Part shown: piece after piece, positions 44,695-60,857 of the stretch
Layout: each line of letters begins with the position of its first letter
How positions within the stretch are numbered: the stretch's first letter is position 1
Assembly (NCBI GenBank): GCA_028710895.1
Contig: JAQTTH010000003.1
Coordinates: 248,001 to 312,000 of the forward strand
From: Paludibacter sp.
GTDB taxonomy: Bacteria; Bacteroidota; Bacteroidia; Bacteroidales; Paludibacteraceae
Length of the DNA stretch: 64,000 nt
Direction of reading: 5' to 3'
Position numbers and translations under genes: made by a program
The notes under the pieces: generated by a model
Told to the model about the DNA's origin: nothing
Databases searched by the model: none
What the model saw: only the letters and a program-made list of their open reading frames with translations

Positions 44695-44830
44695 AGTATT
44701 CTCTGCAAACTCAAACCGGGGATTTTTATTAAAGTGTTTAATCTCTGGTAATTCATCTAAGACTTGTTCTTTTATTATTGATTAGATTGTGCAAACTATT
44801 TGTAAGAAAGGGAATAAATATCTTATCTTT

Positions 44831-44864
44831 TTTGCCTACTTCATATTTCTATTGTGTATATTTG
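44831..44864 (+). promoter_or_regulatory. Promoter of the hybrid two-component gene
   Basis: TTTG (44831-44834) and TATATTTG (44857-44864), 22 bases apart, slightly longer than ideal for a Bacteroidota promoter. Its place shows that the true start is the ATG at 44916 and not the in-frame start further upstream. Confidence 0.5.
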
Positions 44865-44915
44865 TTTTTGTTAGCCAGGTCACAAGTTCATAATCTTATA
44901 AATCTAAGCATTCGT

Positions 44916-47900
44916 ATGAAGAAAATCAAATTGCTCGTAGTAGCACTGATTATTTCTAGTGTAGCAAGTGCTCAATACCATTTTTCATTTTCGCATTATA
45001 CTTCCGATAATGGGTTGTCGCAAAACAGTATTACTGCTTTAATGAAGGACCATAAGGGTTATTTATGGTTTGGTACACGCGATGGGTTGAACAAATTTGA
45101 TGGTTCCAGTTTTACGGTATATAATTCCAAACAAGACCAAAATCTATCGGTATTAAGCAATCGGATTTTATCCGTCAAAGAAGATAAATGGGGGTATATA
45201 TGGGTGAAAACCTATGATGATATTGTGTATCGCTTAAATCCATCAACAGAGAAGTTGATGCGAATTGAATATCCGAGAGGCGGAACAATTAATGATAAAA
45301 TTAATGAAATTATTACGCTTCCTTCAGGAACAATATGGCTCACAACAGCAGATAAAGGTTGTTTTCGGATATCAACAGATGAAGAAACACAGCAGTTGTC
45401 GATAAAAGTGTTTAGTACGAATGAGCGAAATCTCTCCAATAATAATGTAAAGACAGTATTTCAGGATCGACAAAAAAATACGTGGATACTAACTGCGGCT
45501 GGTTTGTCCTGTATCGAGCCGAATGGGAAAATAGTACGATTTTTCGAAAAGCAACCATTTAATTCGGTTGCCGAAAATGATAAGAGAATTTTGTTTGGCT
45601 CTGAGGGGAAATTTTATCAATACGAAAAAAGAAACAGATCTTTAAAACCGATAGCATTACCCGATGGAGCTATCGTTTCTAACATAGCCTATTTTACTCC
45701 GAATAACTATATCCTGGCCACTCAAAGCCATGGTTTTTTTACCTACGACGTCCTTCGTCAGGATTTGCAACAGTTCTCAGTTGAAAGATACCCCGAAATG
45801 AAAACCAATGACATTCAGCAAATCTATATAGATAGAGCGGGCGATGCCTGGTTGGGAATTAAATCTCAGGGAATTTTGCGCTACAATCCACAAACAAATA
45901 AAATAGCGTATATACCATCCCGAATGAATGAGGGACAGGTTTCAAACCCCAATTTTCTGATTTTTGAAGACGAGAAAGATATTCTCTGGATTCAGCCTTA
46001 CTTTGGTTCTTTCTCCTGGTTCGACAGGGCTTCAAATACCCTTGTACCATTTTACAGTGCCTACAACGAGGATATCAATACGCTGTTTTCGTACGGCGTA
46101 AATCACGTATTGTCCGACTCTCAGGGCGTGTTGTGGATTAGTACAAATCGTGGCAACGGATTTTTTAAATGTACTTTCCTGCCCGATTATTTCAATCACT
46201 ACCTGCTTCAGGATCATTCAGTTTATAGTATTTCCAACGAAACGAGGGCTATTTTTGAAGATCGTGAAAAACGGCTTTGGGTAGCTTGTAAGGATGGAGC
46301 CGTGCATGTTTTCGATGAAAACAAGAAACAAATCGGAACCTTAAGTGCCGATGGTCGAATTGTTCCGGGAGGAAAAATGGAAGTATTGGTATATAATTTC
46401 TTTCAGGACAAATCCGGAAATATATGGTTGGCAACAAAGCGCCAGGGTCTGTTCAGACTAAAACCAAGAGGTGGGCGGAATGCATTTCAGGTTGAGAATT
46501 TCACGCACAATCCTTCCAACCCTTATTCACCGGTCAACAACGATTTTTATTCTGTTACGCAGGATAAATGGGGTCGTATCTGGGCCGGAAGTTATGGCGG
46601 TGGATTGCATTTAGTGGATGAGCAAAATGGCATCGTTCGGTTTATTCATGCAAAAAATGAGCTAAAATCGTACCCAATAGCCAATTGCTCGAAAGTACGT
46701 CAGGTTTTTGTCGATTCGAAACATCAGATTTGGGTGGCTACTACCGAAGGCTTCATCACTTTCAATGACAATTTCAAATCTCCCAAAAATATAAAGTTTT
46801 CCTATTTCCATAAAAGGGAGAATAGTACCAACAGCTTGGCCTCAAACGATGTACATTGCATTTTCGAAGATGCGAATAACACCATGTGGATAGGGACTTT
46901 CGGTGGCGGATTGAACAAGATGAAGAAAGGCTTAGACTCAAAGGAACCCGAGTTTGAGGTTTTCAATCGCGAAAATGGAATGCCGAATAACGTAATCTAC
47001 ACGATTATCGACGATAAACAGGGCTATCTGTGGCTCACAACCGAAAATTCCATCGTCAAATTCAATAAAAAGACGAGTAAGATTGAGGCCTTTGGCAAAG
47101 GAAATGAATTAGAGAATGTAGAATTCTCCGAAGCATCTGCCTGTTTGCAAAGTTCGGGCGAAATATGCGTTGGTTCCAAGTCCGGTTTCTACTCCTTTAA
47201 GCCCGATATGGTTCATCGCAGGGTTATTCAGGCTCCGTTGGTGTTCACGAAACTGCTCCTTTTCAATAAAGAGGTGGAGATTAAAGAAGAAGGTTCACTG
47301 CTAAAAGAAGAGATTGATAAAACGCCACAGATTGTTTTCGACCACAAGCAGAATGTATTTACAATCGAATTCGCCACGCTGGATATGCGGGCCCCAGAGA
47401 AGATACAATATGCTTATAAATTGGATGGTTTCGATCCCGAATGGAACAATGTGCAGTCGAAGCATTTTGCGACTTACACAGCTTTACCTCCGGGTACGTA
47501 TAAGTTCCGGGTGAAATCCACCGATAGTGAAGGTGTTTGGTTGGATAACGAACGTCAGATTGAACTACGCATTCTGCCTTCGTTCTGGCAATCGGGCTTT
47601 GCCAAATTCATCTACTTCTTACTCGTTATCGGGTTGTTTCTCACTACCCTGTATATATTTATCACGATTTTCAAACTGAAGAACAACGTTACGCTCGAAA
47701 AACAAATGACGGATATGAAGCTCCGTTTCTTCACAGATATTTCGCATGAGCTGCGCACACCGCTCACCTTAATTTCGCTGCCTGTAGATAGTATTTTGCA
47801 GGAAGACATTGACCCAAATATCAAGGAGCAACTTACGCTTGTGCGCCGTAACCTCGATCGGGTGATGGGACTTATCAATCAAATTCTCGATTTCCGTAAA

Positions 47901-49268
47901 ATTCAGAATAACAAGATGCGACTGACGGTTGAAGAAGTTGATTTCGGCGATTTTGTTCGTATCTGCAGCTCCAATTTTGTGGAGATTGCCCATACGAAGA
48001 ATATTACTTTTGATATTATTGACGAATCCAATGGGGTGAAGGTTTGGGTAGATACGGAGCAGTTCGAATCCATTCTGTCCAACCTGTTGTCGAATGCATT
48101 TAAGTTCACACCATCCGGAAAAAGTATAACGGTGAAAGCTTCGGCGAAACAAAACGCAGCTATTCTCTCCGTGTCCGACGAGGGAATTGGCATTGCGCAG
48201 GAAAAAATCAATTTCATTTTCGACCGCTTCTTCAGTGTTTCTACGCTGCGCAACATTGCTCAGAAGAGTACCGGAATAGGACTTGATTTGGTAAAGAAAC
48301 TCGTCGATTTGCACCACGCAACCATTCATGTCGATAGTCAGTTGGGCAAAGGGTCTACGTTCGAAATTGAGTTTAAACCCGGAAACGAACATTTCGACGG
48401 TGATGTGGACCTTGTCCTTGCCGACAATGATCTACAAGAAGCTGAAGTGGGCGAACTGGAGCAAATCGAAGACCTGGAAGATACTTTCGAAAAGAGTTTC
48501 ACACCATTAATACTCGTTATCGAAGACAACGATGAGCTGCGCCACTTCCTGAAAAAGAGTTTAAAGAAAAACTACAAAGTGGCCGAAGCTGAGAATGGGG
48601 TAGTAGGCTGGGCGAAAATTGAAGAATTGATGCCCGACTTTATCATAGCCGACCTTCGAATGCCCGAAATGGACGGAATGGAATTGACGCAAAAGGTGAA
48701 AGAGGATAAACGCACATCGCATATCCCCATCATTCTGCTGACGGCTGTAACCGACCTCGAAAGCAAGCTCGCTGCCATGAAAATTGGTGTCGACGATTAC
48801 ATTACAAAACCCTTTAGTTCGGAGTTTCTGCACGCGCGGATCGAAAATCTGATGGCACAACGAGCCCAACTGCAAAAGTTCTACCGTTCTCAGATAGTAT
48901 CTTCGAAATCCGATTTCAATCTTCCTCAGTTGGAGATAAAATCGCAGGAAGAGGTATTTATGCAAAACCTTATCAAGCTGATGAACGATAACCTCGACAA
49001 TTTCGATCTGAATATCGATTTGCTTGCCACCGAGCTGGGCATGAGCCGCACTGTGTTCTTCAACAAGCTGAAAAGCCTTACCGGCTACTCGCCTGTGGAG
49101 TTTGTGCGTGAAGTACGCTTCGAACGGGCAGCCGAATATATGCGCGAAACAAACCTCACTGTCTCCGAAATATCCTACAAAGTGGGTATCGAAGACCCGC
49201 GCTATTTCAGTCGCTGCTTCAAACAAAAGTTTGGCATGACGCCCTCGGAATTCAGACAGCATAATTGA
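44916..49268 (+). CDS. Hybrid two-component system sensor-regulator (HTCS)
   Basis: 1450 residues from ATG 44916, which gives the signal peptide MKKIKLLVVALIISSVASAQ. The periplasmic sensor is two beta-propellers of Reg_prop repeats (about 30-780; GYLWFGTRDGLNKFDG, GRIWAGSYGGGLHL, TMWIGTFGGGLNK) and a Y_Y_Y domain (about 800-890). One transmembrane helix is near 895-920. Inside are a HisKA domain with phosphoaccepting His944 in SHELRTPL, an HATPase domain (NLLSNAFKF, DEGIGIAQEK, TGIGLDLVK), a receiver domain (VIEDNDELR, Asp1246 in IADLRMPEMDG, TKPF) and a C-terminal AraC-type helix-turn-helix. Such proteins bind an oligosaccharide directly and activate nearby utilisation genes. Targets here are probably one or both SusC/SusD loci. 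Confidence 0.95.
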   Translation: MKKIKLLVVALIISSVASAQYHFSFSHYTSDNGLSQNSITALMKDHKGYLWFGTRDGLNKFDGSSFTVYNSKQDQNLSVLSNRILSVKEDKWGYIWVKTYDDIVYRLNPSTEKLMRIEYPRGGTINDKINEIITLPSGTIWLTTADKGCFRISTDEETQQLSIKVFSTNERNLSNNNVKTVFQDRQKNTWILTAAGLSCIEPNGKIVRFFEKQPFNSVAENDKRILFGSEGKFYQYEKRNRSLKPIALPDGAIVSNIAYFTPNNYILATQSHGFFTYDVLRQDLQQFSVERYPEMKTNDIQQIYIDRAGDAWLGIKSQGILRYNPQTNKIAYIPSRMNEGQVSNPNFLIFEDEKDILWIQPYFGSFSWFDRASNTLVPFYSAYNEDINTLFSYGVNHVLSDSQGVLWISTNRGNGFFKCTFLPDYFNHYLLQDHSVYSISNETRAIFEDREKRLWVACKDGAVHVFDENKKQIGTLSADGRIVPGGKMEVLVYNFFQDKSGNIWLATKRQGLFRLKPRGGRNAFQVENFTHNPSNPYSPVNNDFYSVTQDKWGRIWAGSYGGGLHLVDEQNGIVRFIHAKNELKSYPIANCSKVRQVFVDSKHQIWVATTEGFITFNDNFKSPKNIKFSYFHKRENSTNSLASNDVHCIFEDANNTMWIGTFGGGLNKMKKGLDSKEPEFEVFNRENGMPNNVIYTIIDDKQGYLWLTTENSIVKFNKKTSKIEAFGKGNELENVEFSEASACLQSSGEICVGSKSGFYSFKPDMVHRRVIQAPLVFTKLLLFNKEVEIKEEGSLLKEEIDKTPQIVFDHKQNVFTIEFATLDMRAPEKIQYAYKLDGFDPEWNNVQSKHFATYTALPPGTYKFRVKSTDSEGVWLDNERQIELRILPSFWQSGFAKFIYFLLVIGLFLTTLYIFITIFKLKNNVTLEKQMTDMKLRFFTDISHELRTPLTLISLPVDSILQEDIDPNIKEQLTLVRRNLDRVMGLINQILDFRKIQNNKMRLTVEEVDFGDFVRICSSNFVEIAHTKNITFDIIDESNGVKVWVDTEQFESILSNLLSNAFKFTPSGKSITVKASAKQNAAILSVSDEGIGIAQEKINFIFDRFFSVSTLRNIAQKSTGIGLDLVKKLVDLHHATIHVDSQLGKGSTFEIEFKPGNEHFDGDVDLVLADNDLQEAEVGELEQIEDLEDTFEKSFTPLILVIEDNDELRHFLKKSLKKNYKVAEAENGVVGWAKIEELMPDFIIADLRMPEMDGMELTQKVKEDKRTSHIPIILLTAVTDLESKLAAMKIGVDDYITKPFSSEFLHARIENLMAQRAQLQKFYRSQIVSSKSDFNLPQLEIKSQEEVFMQNLIKLMNDNLDNFDLNIDLLATELGMSRTVFFNKLKSLTGYSPVEFVREVRFERAAEYMRETNLTVSEISYKVGIEDPRYFSRCFKQKFGMTPSEFRQHN

Positions 49269-49270
49269 GC

Positions 49271-49311
49271 AAAAACCTCTCGTATAATTTTGAGTTATAC
49301 GAGAGGTTTTT
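49271..49311 (+). terminator. Terminator after the HTCS gene
   Basis: Perfect 17-bp stem (49271-49287 with 49295-49311), 7-base loop, T-rich end; it begins 3 bases after the stop. Confidence 0.94.
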
Positions 49312-49378
49312 GTTTATGATATAGGTTGGGAAACTACGCCGAACTGAGTTTTTTGTTTCGAAGATAAATGATATAGGC

Positions 49379-49629: not shown

Positions 49630-49706
49630 GGTTTTAAATAGGAAAGTCTGGATACTTCCTTTTAGCTGCGACATAGCTGCAAGCTATGCCGAACAACCTG
49701 CGCCAA
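49630..49706 (-). repeat. Dispersed repeat, copy D (inverted)
   Basis: Its reverse complement reads TGTTCGGCATAGC, AGCTATGTCGCAGCTAAAAG, GAAGTATCCAGACTTTCC, close to copy B. A further partial inverted piece (ACTATGCCGAACAGAGCT) follows at about 49710-49728. Confidence 0.7.
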
Positions 49707-49774: not shown

Positions 49775-49950
49775 CTACTGTGAACTGAGGTCTGTATATT
49801 TTCCGTTAGCATTATTCCAATAATTTTCGATTCCTTTTGCTAAACTATTGGCCAACTCATATGTTGCTTTAGCTCCATAAAAAAATAGTACAGAAGTTAC
49901 TGTAATCGTTTTCTTTTCCTTATTTACTGTTAGTTCACCACCCCATGAAC
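49775..49950 (-). pseudogene. Orphan fragment resembling an RHS toxin tip
   Basis: The minus-strand frame here (about 58 residues: GELTVNKEKKTITVTSV, YGAKATYELANSLAKGIENYWNN) reads like real protein, unlike the surrounding repeats. The pattern of a beta hairpin followed by an amphipathic helix with IExYWN resembles a segment I associate with C-terminal tips of RHS proteins in Bacteroidota. The open frame continues left-to-right into copy B of the dispersed repeat (to 49987), which supplies an artificial N-terminus; the fragment is cut on the other side too. It lies downstream of the RHS gene on the same strand, where displaced tips are expected. The identity is tentative. Confidence 0.45.
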
Positions 49951-49966
49951 GCCAACCTACGACCAA

Positions 49967-50076
49967 CAGAGTATAAAATTCCAGCACCCGATGTTCGGCA
50001 TATGGCTCTAGCCTATGTCGCGGCTAAAAGGAAAATTCCAGCTTTCCATATTTTATTTGAATATGGAAAGCTGGAA
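49967..50076 (+). repeat. Dispersed repeat, copy B, with 17-bp palindrome
   Basis: Most complete copy: GTATAAAATTCCAGCACCC, GATGTTCGGCATA, CTATGTCGCGGCTAAAAGG, then a perfect 17-bp inverted repeat (50036-50052 with 50060-50076). Copies A, C and D share parts in the same order. Confidence 0.7.
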
Positions 50077-50195
50077 GCAATGAAAACAACTAATTTATTT
50101 TATCATTTCATTTTTTTTTTCTTTTATTACAACGTTACAAACGTTGAACAAACGCCCACTCGTTGAAAACGAGTGGTAGCGTTTCTCGATCCCCA
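50077..50195. other. Short AT-rich stretch after the immunity gene
   Basis: Contains a run of T with CTTTTATTACAACGTTACAAACGTTG and an inverted word CGCCCACTCGTTGAAAACGAGTGG near 50152-50176, which could serve as a terminator-like hairpin for the minus-strand operon. No coding region seen. Confidence 0.4.
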
Positions 50196-50684
50196 TTACC
50201 AAACTGAATCAATTCTATAACATCCTCTTTGTTTGACGATAATTAATTTAATTGTTATCTGATTATTAGTATGTTTATAATTATCATAATAAGAATAAGA
50301 AACAATATACATATTTTGATTTTTTGAATCCTTTCTAAATTTCAATGTTTTTGACCATTTGATATTGAAATCCTGAGATTTCAAAAAAGGATCCGCATCC
50401 AATTCGGCATCTTCATTTTGCTTATCAATTTTATTCAAAAGCCTTATAGTACAATATTTTCTTTTGATTGAATTTAATTTTTCTATTCCTGCTGTTTTAT
50501 TTTCCATCTCTGCCATTTTAGAATTTTCTGTAATATAAGAAGTATAGAATTCATTTAACATATCCAGTATCTTTTCTTCCAAATAAACCTCTTTTGCTTG
50601 GCTGTTTATAGTGTTTGTTTGACAAACAACATTAATTGTCATACTGAACAATATAATAAAAGAGATAGTCATTTTTATTTTCAT
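50196..50684 (-). CDS. Putative secreted immunity protein (DUF3828-like) for the RHS tip
   Basis: 162 residues with an N-terminal signal peptide (MKIKMTISFIILFSMTINVVCQ), so it acts in the periplasm. The mature part (MLNEFYTSYITE, KRKYCTIRLLNKI, LDADPFLKSQDFN, YIVSYSYYDN, ITIKLIIVKQRGCYRIDSVW) matches the DUF3828 pattern as I remember it: a small alpha+beta protein found beside cell-wall amidase effectors. It starts 34 bases after the RHS stop on the same strand, the standard place for the cognate immunity gene, and a periplasmic location suits protection from a peptidoglycan-cutting tip. The immunity role is inferred from location, signal peptide and family resemblance. Confidence 0.7.
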   Translation of the reverse strand: MKIKMTISFIILFSMTINVVCQTNTINSQAKEVYLEEKILDMLNEFYTSYITENSKMAEMENKTAGIEKLNSIKRKYCTIRLLNKIDKQNEDAELDADPFLKSQDFNIKWSKTLKFRKDSKNQNMYIVSYSYYDNYKHTNNQITIKLIIVKQRGCYRIDSVW

Positions 50685-50718
50685 ATCAATTGGCGTTTAA
50701 AAATTATCATTTTAATTA

Positions 50719-53700
50719 TTACTCATTCCCCCATCTTAGAATTGTATAACTTGGCTTATATACTCTATAATCGCTACCCGCCCAAAAACCAGATTGCTTA
50801 AAGTCTGAAATCCATTGTGATCCATTATACATTTGAATATGCCCAAAAGCGTGATATGTATTTTTCCCTTGAAATGAATCGAATACTGCAATATCACCTT
50901 TAGCTGGTACATAATTTTCGGAATCTACTGTTACAAAACCTCTTTTTTGGAGGAACTCATTATAATCCTTAGCAGCAAGAGGGTGTCCCGTAGTATTCAG
51001 TCCACCTGCTTCTAAACCAATTCTTACATATTTTGCACATTGTCCTTGAGATTTTGACAACGCAATTTTATTCATTTTGTCAACAGCTTTATCCTTATCA
51101 TAGTGACCCCCCGCAAAATTCAACGCTCCCACCATGGCACCACTTACCATTCCAAAGAGTATTTCTTCGGCACTATGTCCTCCGGCTACATAAGCACCCA
51201 CACCACCCGTAAATGCAGAAACGGCTATCATCCATCCGTCATTTATCCCTAATGCCCCGGAAGCTGAACCGGCAAACGAGCTGATTAACCCTGCCGCAGC
51301 ACCCTGCCAGAAGTTACCGCCTCGTAGTACGGAAAATCCACCCTGCACCAAAGCATGTGCCGCAGCACGCTCAAGTTCGTTTACTATACTGCCAACATTT
51401 CCAAACTGAACTCCTACTCCTGCGGTTAAAGCCCCCGACATACCGCCTATGATAGCTCCTTTCAAACCTGCCTCAAGGCAATCGCTAAAACTGCCACCAG
51501 ACACAGCCGTGCCAACAACTCCGGCGGCGGCACCCCCGGCTGCCCCGGCCAACATACCGGTTGCAATTACACCAAGAGGTGCAGCTAAAATCCCTACAAC
51601 CCCTCCCACAACAATCGCTGCAGCAGTTGTTACTACAGGCTGCCAGTTTTCGGCCCACCATGTATAACCACTCGGGTCGGTGTATTTAAACGGATTATTC
51701 AAACAATACCCATACCGATTATAATCCAACCAGTTACCGGCATCGGTCAATGTCGGGTCGGGTGAAAAGAAGGAAGCCGTAGCCGGGTCATAAACGCGCC
51801 CGTTCATGTTGATAATGCCGAAGGCATCTAAATGTTCGTGCCCGGTATAGCCACGGTTAATAATTAAATGGCTTTGGTTATCTTTCTGTGTCCAGTCATT
51901 GGCATCGCGCCGTGCACCCCATGGATCATAAGCATACTTCCGTACAATAACACCATTTGCATCGGTCAGTGCTATTAAAGAACCCTGTGCATCCGAATAA
52001 GTATAAAGCAGACTGTCGTTTACATTTGCACTGTTCTGTATCAGAATGGCACCGCTAAGATAATGAATTTTTCGGATAACATTCCCGGTTATTTCTTCTT
52101 CGTAGTTACCCACGTAATACCTCGTGGTGGTAACACCGTTTACAGTTTGCACCGACACGCGTCGCTGGTCATCCACCCCATAGCCGATGCTGTAGGTTTT
52201 ACTGCCTTCGGTAAGCGTGGCTATCTTTTTAAAATCGGTATAGGTTACAGCTAAATCAGCGTTAGGGAAACTTGCCGGCACGCCCGAAATTGTTGTCAAA
52301 GCATGTGGCCCTGTAAGTATTCCATTGGCTATGCCTATTTTGGTTTCAGATTTGGTTCCAGTTCCATCTTCTTTTTCACCTCCGTATTTCAATGTGAAAG
52401 CTCCCAAATCAGATTTCTGAGTGATAGTTCCGTTTGAGTTATCATAACTCATCGAGTAAGGGGTATCTATTCCATTGCGGTTCACCGTCCAACTGATTAG
52501 CCTGTTCAACCCATCGTAGCCCATTGTTTCTGTTTGGCTCGTAAGCTTGTCTTCCCGCAAATGCAGATTGTGGGTATCGGATTCGTACTCATAATACATA
52601 TCCACCACATTATCGGCTTTTATTTCTTTGGTTAGCCCGTTGTCCCAGTAGTCATAAGTAGTGGTTTTACCGTCTTTAGCCAAATGCAATAATTGCCCTT
52701 TGGCATTTTCATCAACTGCTTTCCAAATGGAACGTCCGTTACCATCTTTGGTTTCAGTCAGGTTACTATAACTATCATAAGAGTTTATCGTATAATAGTT
52801 CGATGGATAAGTTTCTTTCTTGATCCTGCCCAGTGCGTCATATTCTTTACCCGAGATAAATACCTTCAGATTATTGTTATTGTCAGCTATTTCCTCTTTT
52901 ACACTCACTACCCTGTCGGTCACATTGGTAAGGTCATAAGTAAAAGTTTGCCTGTTTTTAGTCAGGCCGTTCTTATCTTTGAGTTCTATTGTACCTACAC
53001 GGTGATAGGTATCGTAGGTGTATGAAGTAATTTCATTGTTCCTATTAATGCTTTCTAACCTTCCATCGGGCTTGTAAGTATTAATCGTTTGAATACTGTC
53101 CTTATTGAGATGAATTTTTTGCACTTCCTTTGTTAATTCACCAAAGCCGTTGTATTCCGAACGTATTAAACCACTATTCGGGTCAGTGAGTTTTATGCGT
53201 TTGCCCTGCAAATCGTATTGCATGGTTACGGCTTGCCCGTCTTGGGGTGTACTGGATTTTGTAAGTCCCGAAGCATAATAAGTATATGTTACCTTTTTTC
53301 CATTAACTGAGCTGCTAACGGTTTGTCCGGCATTGTTTAGCGTAGTTATGGTGGTGCTTTCGGGCGTGGTGATAGTAGTGGTCAAATCAACATAGTTTGT
53401 ACTAACATCTCCCATTGGAGTTGTTGCCTTTTTCGGGCGACCAAATTCATCGTAAATGATCGTTTTTGCCCATGTTTTTGCCGCTGCATCTGCTTCGAAA
53501 TAAGGTTCGGAAACACGGTAAACCATACCTTTACGTTTTCCTGCGGCTATATCATTTTCGGTATAATACTCTGTGCTGATCGATATTTTCTTGTTTACTC
53601 CATTAGCATCTTTTAGCCCATAACTATCACTTTGTATTTCGCGCCCCAACGCATCGTACCAGGTAGTAACGGGTGCATTTCCCGAGATTTGGCTATAACT

Positions 53701-56700
53701 GTAATAAACAGCTCCTGTCGGGGCCCCTGTACCAGCCCATTGCAATACGGAAGTTTTGCGGTTTCCGTCGGGATATTTTGTTTCGGTTAATTGTCCCCAG
53801 GCATCGTAAGTATAGCTAGTAACCCGGTTACGCAGTTCGTCTTTTTCGCTATCAAGTAAACCTGTTGTCTCATTCCAGTTATAGGTAGTTGTTTCGTCTA
53901 ATGCATTTGTCTTTGATTTGATAAAACGACCGGCATTTGTTTCCGAGGTATTGTCTTTATAGCATTTAATCGTTGACGTTCGTGTTATTCCATTGCTGGC
54001 TACAGTCACATTCTGAGGATGCCCCCACGGATCATAATTTGAATAGGTGGTTACTACACTATTGGCATCGCCAGCATCAACCGTAGCCACTTTTTGAGTT
54101 ATTTTGTAGGGATTAGTCGCATCAAATAAATAGCTATATCCGGTTGTTCGGGTGTATGTTTCTCCATTTTGAGTCCGTTTAACCGTTATATTTAATGGAA
54201 GATAGGGAGTTGCATTAGCTAACGTAGTGGGTTTTGTAAAAGTACTTACAGTTTCTGTTGTCAAGTTGTCTACAGTGGTCGTTTGTGTAAGTTTACCCGG
54301 TGAGTCCTTGTATTCGTATGTCGTGGTCTGCGTTATACCTGTCTGTTTATCCGTACTGCTTTGTTGTGTTACTATCGGTATATATCTCTTATTTGTTGCA
54401 TCTATTACTTTCACACTATTTGTCAAGCTGGAAACAGAGACATTATCAGTTCCTCCAACTGTGGAGATATGCTGCGAAGCAAGAACCGAAAAGTAATATG
54501 TGGTGTTAATTTCATAGTTGCTTATAACCTTTACATTCTTTTGCGTATTGGTTGATGTTACAGTTGTAAAACCCAAAAAACCTTTACCTTCAGTGTGATA
54601 TTTCGGACTGGCGTAGGTATACGATGTGGTACTACCATCTGCCTGTGTATACGTATCTACCAACAACAAAGGTGCCCGTAACGAACGAACTTTGGCTGTT
54701 GCCTCATCAATGGTATAAGCATCATAATCCGCAAAGTTTTTATAGGTGAAACTTTCAGATTGATTCAACCCATTGGTGATACTACTTACCAAATTGCGAC
54801 GGTTGTCGTTTGGCATGGTAAGTGCATATATATTTGCTCCCTGGTTAATGATAAAATCAGCTATGCCATCACCATTAATATCGGAAATGGTTGTTAGTTT
54901 ATTGTCCAATACCTCAGTAGTTGTCGTTAACGTTATTGGCGTAGTTGATAACTGCCCGTTTCCTAAGTTTTTATAGATAGACCAAACAGTATGGTCATAT
55001 ACGGGAACTGAATTATATTGAGAACTATAAGGATCATAAGGATCATAATTAGGATTCAGTTCATCAATCCAATTATAATTATTTTCATAATTTATTGCAT
55101 CCACTAGTCCATCACCATTGATATCAATAAAATGGACATTAGGACCTTTAAATAGTACTGGGTCTAATGGTTCATTTTTCAAAGTTGGTGTGTTAAATAC
55201 CCCTCCGGTATTGGTAGAAGAGCGCCATATATTATTGCTCGGACACATGGCTATCAAATCGCTCAATCCATCACCATTTAAGTCTAATACCTGATCTTTT
55301 GTTCCACTTATATCATTTATATTCCAGTTTGAGGTATAGTTTAATGATATGTATTCATTGTCTATTGGGGTGCTTTGTGATACATTTCCTGAAGGGATGC
55401 AGATAATGTCTAGCTTCCCATCGGCATCAAAGTCACCAATTTCTATCTGCTTAAATGCATCTCCTGAATTTGTCCATTCATTCACAGGAATCGGATTTAA
55501 TCCATCATTGCTCCCGAAAAAGGCGGCATAACCTCTTCGCCCCTCACCACCTTTATTATAGAATGCCATGACTATGTCATTATAACCATCATGATTTACA
55601 TCGGCTGAGGCTAACTTGACTATTTTTTTGTCGTAATAATCAAAAATATAATTGCTTGTAAATATACCATCTCCATATAGTCTTTCCGTGAAACAAGTTG
55701 AAAATGAACCCGCTCTGCTATTGCCTACGTCAGTATATTTATAAGCATATAAATAATTGTTATTAGTGTATATTATTTCAGCTTTCCCATCGTTGTTGAT
55801 GTCTGCAAAAAGAAATTGTTGATGAAATTTGTCATAATCATGATAAATAAAATTAAGCGTCTTAGCATTTCCATAAGTTTTATTTAGCGGATTATAAAAA
55901 TAAACCGTTACATACCCATATTGGTTTGGAGCCCCTACCCACATTTCAATTCTATCGGGGTATCCATCTCCATCGATATCAGCATAACTCAAGGAAGTAT
56001 GCCCTTCAGGTTGAACGCTAATATTTGAATCCCCAACTGATCCTATTTGATTAAACTGAACGCTATTGTTATCTGCTCCCCAGTTCACAGTGGTAGATCC
56101 TAATTTCGTACCATCCGACGCAGTTATATTAATAGTTTGCAAACGTTTATCGGATGTATAGTCAAAACTGTAAGTTTTTAAGGGATTATTTCCTGATTGA
56201 ACCGTAATCGTACTTAAGAGTTTAGATAGAGTAATCGTTCTACCCGAAATGAAATATTTCCGTGGATTTGCGTTATTATCTACATATCCGAAAAGTACTG
56301 ACTGCCCGGCATAGTCTATCCGAACTAGATATTGTGCATCATCTGAATATGTATAGCTTATTGAATTTCCGTAATTATCAGTCACTTTATTCAGTTTCCA
56401 ACCCAAAAACGCCCCTCCCCGGTTGACTCCATTGGAGTTCTGAGTGTTACCATATTCCAATATTTTACCATCAACGGTAGTAACTTTAAAAGCATTATTA
56501 TTACAAACTATACTTGAATAGTTTTCTGTTTCTGTTGCATATACAGCACCATCCGAAATAGTGGCAATTTTCCCTGAACGATCAGGGGTTCCTCCCGAAA
56601 GATAAATTAAACGCTGCCCATCTAAATATAGGGCATCATTACCATCCCGTTTTATTGAGCTATTTTGTCCATCAAAATATATATTCTTAGCGCCGAGTGT

Positions 56701-57222
56701 GATTGCAGAACATCCAGCAACATCCCAGCCTGTTCCCAAAGCCCCTGCTCCACCCTGGCTGTTATATGCCAGAGAAATGTTGGGTTGCATGCCATTTATA
56801 CCGTCGGGTAGCTCTATTGGTATTTGGTAATTAGCAGCACCTGTTGGCGTAACTGATGCGCTTCCGGGAATACTCCCCACAATTGTTCCGCTCGTTGAGT
56901 TATAACTAACTGTACCATCAGGTGCTTTAACTGCGTAGGTTTTATCAGTGGGTGGAAATAGCAACCCCGGATCTATCTTTCCACTAAAGAAAAATTCATC
57001 CTCAATAGATAGATTTGGATTACTTGGAGATGGAATTGACGTTTTTGCTTGAAAATGAAATCCGGGTTTTAGGGTAATTGATTCCCGTGCCGTATAGTTC
57101 TTTATGGTACCGGTTTCATCTGAGCTAAGCTGATAAGTTACCTGCGGCGTTTGTCCCCATCCCACTGCAGTCCATAAACTAAGTAATATGGATAATATGT
57201 AGTATTTGTAGTTGATTTGCAT
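50719..57222 (-). CDS. RHS/YD-repeat polymorphic toxin with SpvB and FG-GAP domains and amidase-like tip
   Basis: 2167 residues. A signal peptide (about 1-23) is followed by a GFHFQA segment ([12 protein letters not shown]) like the 3-coathanger domain of T9SS-bearing bacteria, an SpvB-type region (about 130-400: [21 protein letters not shown]), seven FG-GAP/VCBS calcium motifs (about 410-790; [36 protein letters not shown]), RHS/YD repeats (about 1100-1780) and the RHS core (about 1785-1855: [42 protein letters not shown]). A Gly/Ala-rich hydrophobic linker leads to a tip (about 2040-2167) with Cys2062 ([10 protein letters not shown]) and His2128 ([10 protein letters not shown], then WISDFKQ), the layout of CHAP/NlpC-like amidases. 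It would cut peptidoglycan of a neighbour. No T9SS tail is possible with the tip at the C-terminus. Confidence 0.88.
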   Translation of the reverse strand: [2167 protein letters not shown]

Positions 57223-57277
57223 AGTGTTTAGAATTGCATTTTACCTTTGCTCTAACTAAATTTGTAAGGGAGTTGTG

Positions 57278-57285
57278 CAAAAGTA
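57278..57285 (-). promoter_or_regulatory. Possible -7 promoter element for the RHS gene
   Basis: On the minus strand TACTTTTG, fitting TAnnTTTG, 55 bases before the RHS start. No well-spaced -33 box. It sits downstream of the tail-fibre gene's terminator, so the RHS gene would need a promoter here. Confidence 0.4.
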
Positions 57286-57301
57286 AAATAGTTGTATTTA
57301 A

Positions 57302-57340
57302 ATAAAAAAACAATCTCCTCTCCGCCAATTAGCGGAGAGG
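57302..57340 (-). terminator. Terminator after the tail-fibre-like gene
   Basis: Minus-strand stem of 9 bp (57340-57332 with 57325-57317) around a 6-base loop, followed by ATTG and a run of seven T. It may be leaky, linking the tail-fibre gene and RHS expression. Confidence 0.8.
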
Positions 57341-57348
57341 TAGGTAGG

Positions 57349-58959
57349 TTATTTTTGATTTTTCTCCAATTGTTCTATTCTCTTTTGTTGCTCTATCACA
57401 TACAAAGTCAACTCTTCCACTTTTTGTAGTAGTTTATTTTGCATTTCAACCATATTTATGCCATTTTCTTTTACATCGGATGCTGACGGAATATTTGGAA
57501 GGTGTTTGTTTGTTTGAATAAAGCTACTTACCTGACCTAATGATGGTAATTTATATTCCGGGTCAAAAACAAAGTCTGGAAAATTATCTACTGATACAAT
57601 TTTTACTTCTGTGGCTCTGATAGTTCCTTTTACATCAAGTAAATATAGCGGATTTGGCGTAGCAGTTCCAATCCCTACGCTTCCGGTTGGTCCTATCGCA
57701 ATTCCATTGGGTGTGGTGTTACAACCAAAGTATGCATAAGAATTATACGCATCAATTACTGCAGTTCCATTAGTATATTGGCCAATGGTTGTTGTTCCAT
57801 GCACTTCCAATTTTGCATTTGGAGCATCTGTACCAATCCCCACATTTCCACCATTAAAAAATGTATTACCTGCTGTACTAATATGAACTCTGGTTTCATG
57901 GTCGCTTTTGGTTATTGATTTCGAGTAAACCATGTTAAATTCAGAATATAATGGCCCATTGGATGCACCGCCTGGTTCTAATGAGAAAATATTATGCGCA
58001 TATTCTCCAACAGGAGTTCCTATTGTCATATTATGGCCACCCCAAAATATGTGGTTGTCATCTATGCCAGAGTTAATATAAATGTTTCCTCTCACATCTA
58101 ATTTTGCCCCGGGTGTACTTGTTCCTATCCCAATATTTCCAATATCATCAATTCTCATTTTTTCAGTATTATTACTCGTGTTGAAAGTGATAAATCCACC
58201 AGTTTCACCTCCTCCTCTAAAGAAATTTATCGAACTATTGGTTTGTCCGTAAAAATGATGTTCGATTGAAAAACTTTTAGTGTTGTATGTCCCTGCTGGA
58301 CAAATAGTACTATAGCCAACAACTCCCAAATAAGTTCCATCTCCTGTTGGATTACCTTCTGATAGTCGACCAAGAACAGTTCCTGTTTGACCATTATCTA
58401 TAAATGAACCAATATCCAATTTGGCTTTCGGATTAGTTGTTCCTATCCCCACATTTCCCACATTATCTATGGTCATTTTGGTTCCATTTACACCTCCAAA
58501 ACTATACCCATTCATTCCGGTTTGATCACCGAAAAATTGCATATAGCCTGTAATAGGGCTTCTTCCTATATTATATCCATAACCAGCATTATTTCCTATT
58601 CTGAATGAGTAACTTGAATTACTGTTTTCAATATCAAGCAATTGATTAGGCAGTGTTGTTCCAATCCCTACATATCCGGAAGCATTAATTGTAAGCCTGT
58701 CACTACCACTCGTACCAAATTTCAAAAATCCACCACTCGTACTTGTGCCTCTTACAAAGCTCATATAACCATTGCTTGTATTTCCCGTATTAACGTGAGT
58801 CATTGTAAATGCCGCTAAACCTGACGATTCAACAGTATATCCACTCACTTGTAACGAATTTACTCCATTTGTAGATAGTGTGTTAAGTGTAGCGCTAGGT
58901 TGCCCATAGAGGAATATCCACGTAAATAATAAAAACGGAATTAATTTAAATTTTTTCAT
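57349..58959 (-). CDS. Tail-fibre-like secreted protein with VGIGT repeats
   Basis: 536 residues. Signal peptide (about 1-19, ending LYGQ). Five copies of the motif VGIGT-x-x-P followed by a LDI/LDV strand (near 95, 168, 280, 372 and 428) are typical of trimeric phage-tail-fibre and adhesin stalks. The C-terminal part (VKGTIRATEVKI, LPSLGQVSSFIQTNKHLPNIPSASDV, MVEMQNKLLQKVEELTLYVIEQQKRIEQLEK) matches the coiled-coil tail region common in Bacteroidota proteins of this type, related to the S74 intramolecular chaperone domain. It would form a trimeric rod on the surface. It precedes the RHS gene on the same strand, so a role as receptor-binding partner is possible but unproven. Confidence 0.8.
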   Translation of the reverse strand: MKKFKLIPFLLFTWIFLYGQPSATLNTLSTNGVNSLQVSGYTVESSGLAAFTMTHVNTGNTSNGYMSFVRGTSTSGGFLKFGTSGSDRLTINASGYVGIGTTLPNQLLDIENSNSSYSFRIGNNAGYGYNIGRSPITGYMQFFGDQTGMNGYSFGGVNGTKMTIDNVGNVGIGTTNPKAKLDIGSFIDNGQTGTVLGRLSEGNPTGDGTYLGVVGYSTICPAGTYNTKSFSIEHHFYGQTNSSINFFRGGGETGGFITFNTSNNTEKMRIDDIGNIGIGTSTPGAKLDVRGNIYINSGIDDNHIFWGGHNMTIGTPVGEYAHNIFSLEPGGASNGPLYSEFNMVYSKSITKSDHETRVHISTAGNTFFNGGNVGIGTDAPNAKLEVHGTTTIGQYTNGTAVIDAYNSYAYFGCNTTPNGIAIGPTGSVGIGTATPNPLYLLDVKGTIRATEVKIVSVDNFPDFVFDPEYKLPSLGQVSSFIQTNKHLPNIPSASDVKENGINMVEMQNKLLQKVEELTLYVIEQQKRIEQLEKNQK

Positions 58960-59088
58960 AAGAATTGATTTTTATTTGTTTGTATATTTTGTCTTGTTAT
59001 AGATGGCTGGTAAAAAAAGTAGTCACTTATAGATAATAAGGCCTGTTAGCGGGCTTGGCCCTGACAGCGTCTTAAAGGGTGTTGAGGG

Positions 59089-59535
59089 TCATTGTTTGAT
59101 GATTTTAAATTCCGTCACCTTCTCCCCGGCTTGTATCCGGAGTATATAATAAGCTGCAGGGTAAACAGCCATATTTACTGGCGTTGTACCTTGTTGTACC
59201 TGTTTATTGAGCAGTTGCTTTCCGTCGGCATTGTACAGTATGATGCGTAGTTGATCCTTGTCACTTCCACCGCTAATGTCTACAGCCAAAGCTCCTTTCG
59301 TTGGATTGGGAAATACTTTGATAGTTCGTTCGCCCAATTGTTCTTCCACCGGCTCGATATTCTTTTTTACATGGGGCGGATTGGGTGTAACAGTAAGATT
59401 CACTACTTTCCGCGATATGCGATTTCCTGCATTGTCGTAAGCATAGCTAACGACATTCTGAGCTACTCCTAGTTGACTAAGAATTGACAACATAATAAGA
59501 ATAACACAAAGTGTTTTAAAATGTAAATGTTTCAT
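59089..59535 (-). CDS. Small secreted protein: YD-repeat start fused to T9SS sorting domain
   Basis: 148 residues. Signal peptide (about 1-25, ending GVAQ), then a single YD-repeat-like strand (VVSYAYDNAGNRISRKVV), a short Pro-rich linker (TPNPPHVKKNIEPVEE) and a complete T9SS type A sorting domain (IKVFPNPTKGALAVDIS, IILYNADGKQLLNK, YYILRIQAGEKV, FKIIKQ). Such mini-proteins are often encoded just before RHS genes in Bacteroidota, and the order here (this gene, tail-fibre-like, RHS, immunity, all on one strand) fits that. It could be a T9SS-delivered surface anchor that interacts with the RHS shell through its YD strand. Function is inferred only. Confidence 0.78.
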   Translation of the reverse strand: MKHLHFKTLCVILIMLSILSQLGVAQNVVSYAYDNAGNRISRKVVNLTVTPNPPHVKKNIEPVEEQLGERTIKVFPNPTKGALAVDISGGSDKDQLRIILYNADGKQLLNKQVQQGTTPVNMAVYPAAYYILRIQAGEKVTEFKIIKQ

Positions 59536-60113: not shown

Positions 60114-60857
60114 ATGAAAACAACTATTGGAAGTGGTAACGAACAAAATGTAACAAACTTAGGATTGATGCTTACAATCTTTCCAACCTATGGAGAGGCC
60201 TACAATCCACCTCGTCTGGCTCTCACAATTCCCGGACTTACCGACTTATTACAAAAAGGAAAACTGGAAATCGATGCTGTAAATGCGGCTGAAATAGTAT
60301 CTCAAAATGCCGTTTCAGCACGTACTGTTGAATTTGAAGACTTCGATAAATTAATCACACGCACAATCAATTCCCTGCGCATTGCAGGCGTATCAGCGCA
60401 AACGCTTACACAGGCAGAAGCTATTGTGCGCGATTTACGTGGTAAACGAGCATCCGGTCTTCTTTCGGATGAAGAACTGGCAGCCGAAAAAGCAAAGGGA
60501 AATACGATAACTCAGGTAAAAGTTCACAACTCAACAATCGACAGTAAGATTGAAAACCTGGCTAAGTATGTATTGTTTTTAGCTGCTGTTCCCGATTACA
60601 AACCAAACGAGGCAGAACTCAAGGTGGAAGGCCTGCAGGCAAAACTGGATGCAATCAAAGCAAAAAATGCAGATGCAAAAACAGCGGAAGCAGCGTTGGA
60701 TGCTGCACGCATATCTCGCAACGGCCTTTTGTATACCAACAACACCGGATTAGTCGATACAGCCTTAGCAGCAAAACTATACGTAAAGTCTGCTTTTGGT
60801 GCCACAAGTCCGCAATACAAACAAATAAGCGGTATTGAATTCACAAAACCAAGATAA
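60114..60857 (+). CDS. Unknown soluble protein, 247 residues
   Basis: I do not recognise this family. There is no signal peptide or membrane segment. The sequence starts MKTTIGSGNEQNVTNLGLMLTIFPTYGEAYNPPR and is otherwise rich in Ala, Lys and Glu with several long predicted helices, notably 160-205 (KPNEAELKVEGLQAKLDAIK, KTAEAALDAARISRNGLLYT), so a mostly helical cytoplasmic protein is likely. It ends KQISGIEFTKPR. It is preceded by the best promoter in the window and a leader of about 140 bases, and is transcribed alone. That suggests high expression. It could be a structural or phage/tail-derived protein, but nothing in the sequence settles this. Confidence 0.8.
   Translation: MKTTIGSGNEQNVTNLGLMLTIFPTYGEAYNPPRLALTIPGLTDLLQKGKLEIDAVNAAEIVSQNAVSARTVEFEDFDKLITRTINSLRIAGVSAQTLTQAEAIVRDLRGKRASGLLSDEELAAEKAKGNTITQVKVHNSTIDSKIENLAKYVLFLAAVPDYKPNEAELKVEGLQAKLDAIKAKNADAKTAEAALDAARISRNGLLYTNNTGLVDTALAAKLYVKSAFGATSPQYKQISGIEFTKPR

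Follow-up and report, generated by a model that had tools for sequence, protein, structure and literature searches.

How a toxin of the RHS family leaves a Bacteroidota cell when it carries no sorting tag for the type IX secretion system (T9SS) is apparently an open question, and a locus of Paludibacter sp. (Bacteroidales; Paludibacteraceae) raises it directly. The locus lies in a 64,000-nucleotide stretch of DNA, hereafter called the window, which covers positions 248,001 to 312,000 of contig JAQTTH010000003.1 (GenBank assembly GCA_028710895.1). Four minus-strand open reading frames (ORFs) form a cassette (Table 1), transcribed in the order of a small protein with one YD hairpin and a T9SS C-terminal domain (the YD-CTD protein), a fiber protein with VGIGT repeats, an RHS protein with a predicted peptidoglycan amidase at its tip, and a DUF3828 protein. 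A first-pass annotation made from the letters of the window had placed these four genes in this order and given each a signal peptide. The ORFs are confirmed, and a hydrophobic, signal-peptide-like N terminus is visible by eye in all four proteins. We favor, at slightly better than even chances, the reading that the cassette encodes an antibacterial polymorphic toxin of the SpvB/TcdB-RHS type that is exported by the T9SS, with the YD-CTD protein giving the sorting signal in trans.

The division of features between the RHS and YD-CTD proteins is what suggests such an arrangement. Profile searches place SpvB (residues 126 to 172), FG-GAP, TcdB_midN (763 to 899), RHS repeats, and Rhs_assc_core (1765 to 1852) in the RHS protein, which matches both PF12256 and PF03534. 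With its signal-like start, SpvB domain, propeller repeats, RHS core, and variable C-terminal tip, the protein has the full build of an SpvB/TcdB-class RHS toxin. The same kind of search found no type A or type B T9SS CTD in it at E values up to 0.1. The YD-CTD protein has one, matching Por_Secre_tail (E 3.3e-9) and TIGR04183 (E 3.8e-11) above the curated cut-off. Together with its signal-like start and a full-length match to the SprA translocon in the source genome, this marks the YD-CTD protein as a predicted type A substrate; SprA was the sole component of the T9SS machinery searched for. T9SS sorting domains number 150 or more in the 4.9-Mb source genome (217 candidates, 150 of them scored), and the T9SS itself is restricted to Bacteroidota (PMC7073777).

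The YD-CTD protein also carries a single hairpin of the RHS type. Four residues of its YD hairpin (Y33, D34, G37, and N38) are invariant in an alignment of 21 chosen YD-CTD proteins. A single-sequence structure model, with a mean predicted local distance difference test (pLDDT) score of 72.9, shows strands at residues 24 to 33 and 39 to 49, a disordered linker (low confidence at 50 to 59), and a beta-sandwich. A profile built from the 21 proteins matches CTDs in eight PDB chains, at positions 65 to 150 only. The ratio of nonsynonymous to synonymous substitution rates (dN/dS) of the YD-CTD gene among its three copies in the source genome is 0.08 to 0.11, indicating that the gene is under constraint and not debris.

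We surveyed the partnership of the two genes in two samples drawn with PF12256. The 200 genomes of the family sample gave 76 places outside the source genome, all of which were fetched, and the 295 genomes of the class sample gave 62, of which 39 were fetched, including 12 of the 16 best-scoring. Eight class loci (L198 to L205) were picked after a YD-CTD match had been seen on the same contig, and L213, L218, and L223 also had such a match, on the downstream side. In a FastTree phylogeny of 112 RHS N termini, which retains open forks, the window's group comprises 57 rows, made up of a 17-row clade and a 40-row group under a fork with a support of 84; the latter takes in L138, L164, and L170, each with a YD-CTD gene upstream. 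A partner was scored when a CTD gene lay on the same strand within 2.6 kb upstream of the RHS gene. The group counts exclude six of the 112 rows as odd or broken (L112, L157, L163, L205, L213, and L223), of which L205 has a YD-CTD gene upstream, L223 has one less than 1 kb downstream, and L213 has one farther downstream. Also omitted were four records whose 5' end is open (L140, L162, L166, and L185), L118|0, and two loci without an RHS match (L128 and L188).

A CTD gene stands upstream in 51 of the 57 rows of the window's group, two of which (L131 and L038) were added by hand. The proportion is 36/37 in the family sample, 12/17 in the class sample, and 3/3 in the source genome; without the eight preselected loci, the class rows show six of ten upstream, one downstream, two cut by the contig edge, and one with none. 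The six rows of the group outside the 51 divide into two with the gene less than 1 kb downstream (L201 and L216), two at a contig edge (L219 and L224), and two with none (L144 and L218). The CTD density of the source genome predicts 0.04 to 0.06 CTD genes per locus by chance. The gene order exceeds chance: the block occurs twice more in the source genome with other tips, and the partnership also occurs in related genomes. Upstream partners come from 10 family codes, f1 among them, although related rows are nonindependent events. Of the 51 partners, 43 show the YD pattern, two more (L211 and L153) do so by eye, and those at L168 and L177 are cut by a contig end. The two genes are often tightly spaced, with 16 of the 49 measured distances at 13 bases or fewer and some overlapping, and 50 of the 57 RHS proteins have a hydrophobic N terminus. 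A cruder count applied TIGR04183 from NCBIfam alone to the nearest upstream protein of the 76 family loci; of the 69 such proteins scanned, 39 have the domain. This figure mixes all groups and overlooks loci with a fiber gene in between.

Outside the window's group, no upstream YD-CTD gene was found in any of the 11 Tc-complex-like rows, the 31 rows of a long group, or the 7 of a sister group; the contig extends less than 2.6 kb upstream in one Tc-complex-like row and nine long ones. None of the 11 Tc-complex-like proteins has a hydrophobic N terminus, a giant ORF mostly adjoins them, and one row has a CTD gene downstream. As a separate observation, six members of the long group (L130, L132, L135, L137, L150, and L175) have a 412- to 448-aa CTD protein whose gene overlaps the RHS start by 1 to 4 bases, and this protein may be another type of partner.

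The distribution of an accessory domain may also link the two proteins. A lamin-tail domain (LTD) is present on the RHS N terminus at 10 of the 57 loci and on the CTD partner at 6, one of which is a weak match (L178), and on both at none; L151, where the LTD sits on a 531-aa fragment of a disrupted RHS frame, was counted in neither. The number is small, but domain swaps of this sort are known from proteins that act as a unit.

By homology, the tip of the RHS protein is a predicted peptidoglycan-cutting enzyme. Residues 2057 to 2164 match PDB chain 4hz9_A with an E value of 1.3e-14 when the full-length protein is the query and 2.3e-16 when the tip is used alone. Cys2062 aligns with Cys23 and His2128 with His81 of this chain (numbering counted from the alignment), which we take to be the catalytic residues of Tae3. 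The structure 4HZ9 is that of the Tae3 amidase effector, which has a Cys-His-Ser triad (PMC10318531), and Ser2139, within the motif WISDF, is a candidate for the third residue. Tip positions C38, H104, and S115 are invariant in all three aligned tips. The amidase assignment of the first-pass annotation is supported by homology; it had set Cys2062 and His2128 in a CHAP/NlpC-like context, and both residues are present, but the tip is Tae3-like, and the CHAP profile (E 6.2e-5) falls under its cut-off. The tip matches 3 of the 200 family genomes including the source genome, the other two being stand-alone short ORFs. A scan of genome contigs gave one distant Proteus locus. Among viral contigs, query A4 had no match; Tae3-like domains are found there at L232 to L240, and the copy at L236 ends a 962-aa protein.

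The neighbor of the toxin gene matches DUF3828 (E 1.9e-6, above the cut-off), as had been proposed, and its sole relative among PDB chains is the solved DUF3828 structure 3kzt (E 5.7e-8; phmmer, E up to 10). Its position, secretion, and the general pattern of polymorphic toxins suggest that it protects its maker, and its signal-like start fits a periplasmic guard. The predicted immunity role thus keeps its support from context as a secreted neighbor but gains none from a sequence match to a Tai3 chain, and identity with Tai3 finds no support at the sequence level. DUF3828 is present in 6 of the 200 family genomes including the source genome; no RHS or Tae3-like gene was seen within about 1.5 kb on each side of the other five loci, and a general linkage of DUF3828 with Tae3-like tips was not found across the 200 genomes.

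Two further loci of the source genome carry the same RHS backbone, at 290 kb and 90 kb of contig C33, and they share the surroundings of the cassette: a divergent gene for a 247-aa protein, YD-CTD and VGIGT proteins, and the RHS gene. The three copies have three different tips. One C33 tip is hydrophobic with a membrane-protein-like neighbor, and the other has an HExxH motif (by eye); neither matches a Pfam family above the cut-off. Compared with the copy at 290 kb, the DNA of the window is 93% identical over 703 bp spanning the end of the fiber gene and the start of the RHS gene, 86% identical across the YD-CTD gene, and 93% identical over 99 bp directly past the immunity gene. Between these, positions 50191 to 51662, which hold the tip and immunity gene, have no match. 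Shared DNA flanking an unmatched tip and immunity gene is the pattern left by module exchange. The source genome also has two shorter RHS loci of a different type, on contigs C3 and C15. At L039 and L040, two 1.1-kaa RHS genes are each preceded by another large gene and a 355-aa protein, which at L040 has a CTD match (E 1.3e-4); the tip at L039 bears a weak resemblance to GIY-YIG.

The fiber protein may serve to bind a target cell. Residues 75 to 298, within its repeat shaft, match 8ond (E 2.4e-9), the structure of Bd2133, a MAT prey-recognition fiber of Bdellovibrio (PMC10769870), and PHROG tail fibers match it with an E value of 6e-20. A fiber gene of the VGIGT kind lies within 2.6 kb upstream in at least 26 of the 57 rows of the window's group, a lower bound because a single query was used. 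Binding of prey or another target by the fiber is suggested by its likeness to the MAT fiber.

Taken together, these features are consistent with the following mechanism. All four proteins would be exported by Sec, the RHS protein reaching the periplasm, where its shell, as in the RHS family, would enclose the C-terminal amidase and the DUF3828 protein would guard the cell wall of the maker. The YD hairpin may then dock on the RHS shell, and the CTD would hand the pair to the T9SS, which would deliver the toxin onto the outer membrane or beyond it. Binding to the target cell would fall to the MAT-like fiber, and the Tae3-like tip, once in the target periplasm, would be expected to cut peptidoglycan peptides. 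In its most specific form, which we hold tentatively and at somewhat less than even chances, one RHS hairpin joined to a CTD is a detachable sorting signal that plugs into exchangeable RHS toxins lacking a tag, exports them in trans, and is aimed by the MAT-like prey-binding fiber of the same cassette. Parts of what the first-pass annotation had called a T9SS-assisted contact or antagonism system have genomic support, in that a T9SS-tailed partner and a fiber are frequent, SprA is present, and VipB and sheath matches are lacking; docking, T9SS export of the RHS protein, fiber targeting, toxicity, and immunity are inferred.

The gene partnership and the YD homology would fit equally well if the YD-CTD protein were secreted alone by the T9SS, fixed to the surface, and held there an RHS protein exported by some other means. 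Type A T9SS substrates are either released or linked covalently to lipopolysaccharide at the surface (PMC12635249). This surface anchor is the chief rival, which we consider unlikely but still deserving of weight. It requires another route, and the two that were looked for are without a match in the source genome: one marker of the type VI secretion system (T6SS), the sheath protein VipB (PF05943), gave 0 matches with Escherichia coli as the sole positive control, and one marker of contractile sheaths, Phage_sheath_1 (PF04984), gave 0 matches with three positive control genomes. Delivery by a T6SS or an extracellular contractile injection system is accordingly not supported for this genome. 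A different role in the periplasm, with the YD-CTD protein or its hairpin closing the RHS shell or helping it to fold and the CTD serving only to clear leftover protein, appears improbable. A single RHS-type hairpin is what a filler of an edge strand is expected to look like, and the LTD on either one of the two proteins suits this role as well, but at 51 of 57 loci the partner retains a CTD, which would be needless for a purely periplasmic task.

Two further explanations concern the toxin itself. The tip matches a PHROG endolysin family (E 1.6e-18) and has relatives in nine viral loci, as would be expected of a captured phage endolysin that serves wall growth or lysis of its maker and is no weapon; its attachment behind an RHS core, the secreted neighbor, and the paralogs with other tips and neighbors are instead the pattern of polymorphic toxins (PMC3482391), making this very improbable. 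We give least credence of all to a Tc-type toxin directed at eukaryotes, in which the SpvB/TcdB/RHS body, with its PF12256 and PF03534 matches, would be the B/C component of a Tc complex and the tip would act on a host cell. The tip is a relative of peptidoglycan amidases with an immunity-like gene next to it, and the window's cassette has neither the giant ORF that mostly adjoins the Tc-complex-like group nor that group's lack of hydrophobic N termini. Membership in a Tc complex is rejected on the signal-like start and the RHS neighbors of 536 and 162 aa.

Several observations weigh against export in trans by the YD-CTD protein, or against parts of that scheme. A closed RHS shell may exceed the width of the SprA channel, which speaks against export of a finished shell. 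Foldseek with the YD-CTD model returned nothing below an E value of 0.001; its top match was the DUF3244 protein 3d33 and not a T9SS CTD, with the T9SS CTDs 8glk_D, 8qb1_A, 8gl8_D, and 8gl6_D, some from translocon complexes, following only weakly (E 0.01 to 0.06). L144 and L218 lack an upstream CTD gene, and at L144 roughly 14 kb of additional sequence (L225) contains none either; the YD-CTD protein of L139 is a 98-aa piece. The Tc-complex-like L189 has an unrelated CTD gene 1.9 kb upstream. In the long group, whose members are mostly Sec-signaled, 23 of 31 have no upstream CTD gene (9 on a short contig and 14 with none), and the other 8 have different CTD proteins of 412 to 681 aa without the YD pattern. 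In the sister group of seven SpvB-RHS-like proteins, also mostly Sec-signaled, an upstream CTD gene is absent throughout, and one row has such a gene downstream; this group, with L144 and L218, indicates that the partner is not indispensable everywhere. Its absence from some Sec-signaled relatives counts equally against the surface anchor. For the immunity protein, phmmer against PDB chains (E up to 10) found no match to the Tai3 chain, and a single-sequence structure model (pLDDT 50) was too poor for a fold search.

Parts of the arrangement are already known. The TcdB/TcaC class of Zhang et al. (2012) has the same architecture of signal peptide, SpvB, integrin-like propeller, RHS, and variable tip, and both Tox-NLPC/P60 tips and Bacteroidetes are listed for it, whereas "por secretion" and "DUF3828" occur 0 times in the accessible text of that paper (PMC3482391). 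The adjacency of rhs and T9SS genes was described in Apibacter, where many Rhs proteins have SpvB and TcdB domains, most rhs genes adjoin T9SS type A sorting genes, and the T9SS was likewise suspected over the T6SS (mSystems 2021, PMC8125069). As far as the accessible part of that report extends, it covers one genus and does not include the YD-CTD architecture, the fiber, partner-free contrast groups, or an adaptor mechanism, and the adaptor model proposed here goes further. Export by the T9SS was also hypothesized from gene neighborhoods for TANFOR toxins, most of which have a Sec signal and neighbors enriched in T9SS substrates (Jana et al. 2020, PMC7073777); these have another N-terminal domain, and the partners given in the available text are SprB and CTD proteins, with no single-YD CTD protein. 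The tip is homologous to Tae3 of the Tae3/Tai3 pair of Ralstonia pickettii (4hz9), with Cys and His aligned, yet Tae3 is a small T6SS effector, whereas here the enzyme forms the end of an RHS protein, the source genome has no T6SS sheath match, and the neighbor is a DUF3828 protein that matches no Tai3 chain by sequence. The match to Bdellovibrio MAT fibers (PMC10769870) covers the repeat shaft and spares the C terminus of the 536-aa protein. A literature search, with preprints and most subscription journals outside its reach, found no proposal of a single-YD CTD protein as an export adaptor, and PADLOC returned no match for five proteins. If the adaptor model is true, the T9SS joins the secretion systems that kill rivals, and the rule that its substrates carry their tag in cis gains a form in trans. 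The RHS tip is C-terminal and exchangeable, and a tag on a second protein would also account for how these ends can be swapped without loss of export.

Table 1. Features of the cassette and its surroundings, in positions of the window
Feature	Positions	Strand	Basis
RHS polymorphic toxin, 2167 aa	50719..57222	-	signal-like start, SpvB, FG-GAP, TcdB_midN, RHS repeats, Rhs_assc_core
Tae3-like peptidoglycan amidase tip (predicted), RHS residues 2057-2164	50731..51054	-	homology to 4hz9; Cys2062, His2128, candidate Ser2139
Putative immunity protein, DUF3828, 162 aa	50196..50684	-	signal-like start; begins 34 bp past the toxin stop
Fiber protein with VGIGT repeats, 536 aa	57349..58959	-	resembles Bdellovibrio MAT fiber Bd2133 and phage tail fibers
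YD-CTD protein, 148 aa, proposed export adaptor	59089..59535	-	signal-like start, one YD hairpin, linker, T9SS type A CTD
YD hairpin of the YD-CTD protein, residues 24-49	59389..59466	-	alignment and structure model
T9SS sorting domain of the YD-CTD protein, residues 74-148	59092..59316	-	profile and sequence matches; weak fold matches
Shared 99-bp stretch, likely 3' border of an exchangeable tip-immunity unit	50092..50190		93% identity to DNA directly past the gene after the toxin in the 290-kb C33 paralog (L037, 11434-11529)
Divergent gene, 247 aa, function unassigned	60114..60857	+	adjoins the YD-CTD gene in 3/3 copies of the source genome

The surroundings of the cassette hold a few further features. 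The product of the divergent gene matches no Pfam, NCBIfam, or PHROG family above the cut-off, and its dN/dS among the three loci of the source genome is 0.06 to 0.11. On the other side, a plus-strand ORF of 1496 aa (44778 to 49268), which by eye resembles a hybrid two-component regulator, is convergent with the cassette. Beyond the cassette lie two imperfect palindromes of about 42 bp (49270 to 49312 and 50036 to 50076), each of which matches its own reverse complement at 88% identity, together with two inverted copies of about 60 bp (49636 to 49695 and 49992 to 50053; 81%); these are possibly terminators or a small repeat element. A short minus-strand ORF at 49775 to 49987 weakly resembles an ORF of L114 (E 0.003) and possibly represents the end of a further toxin tip.

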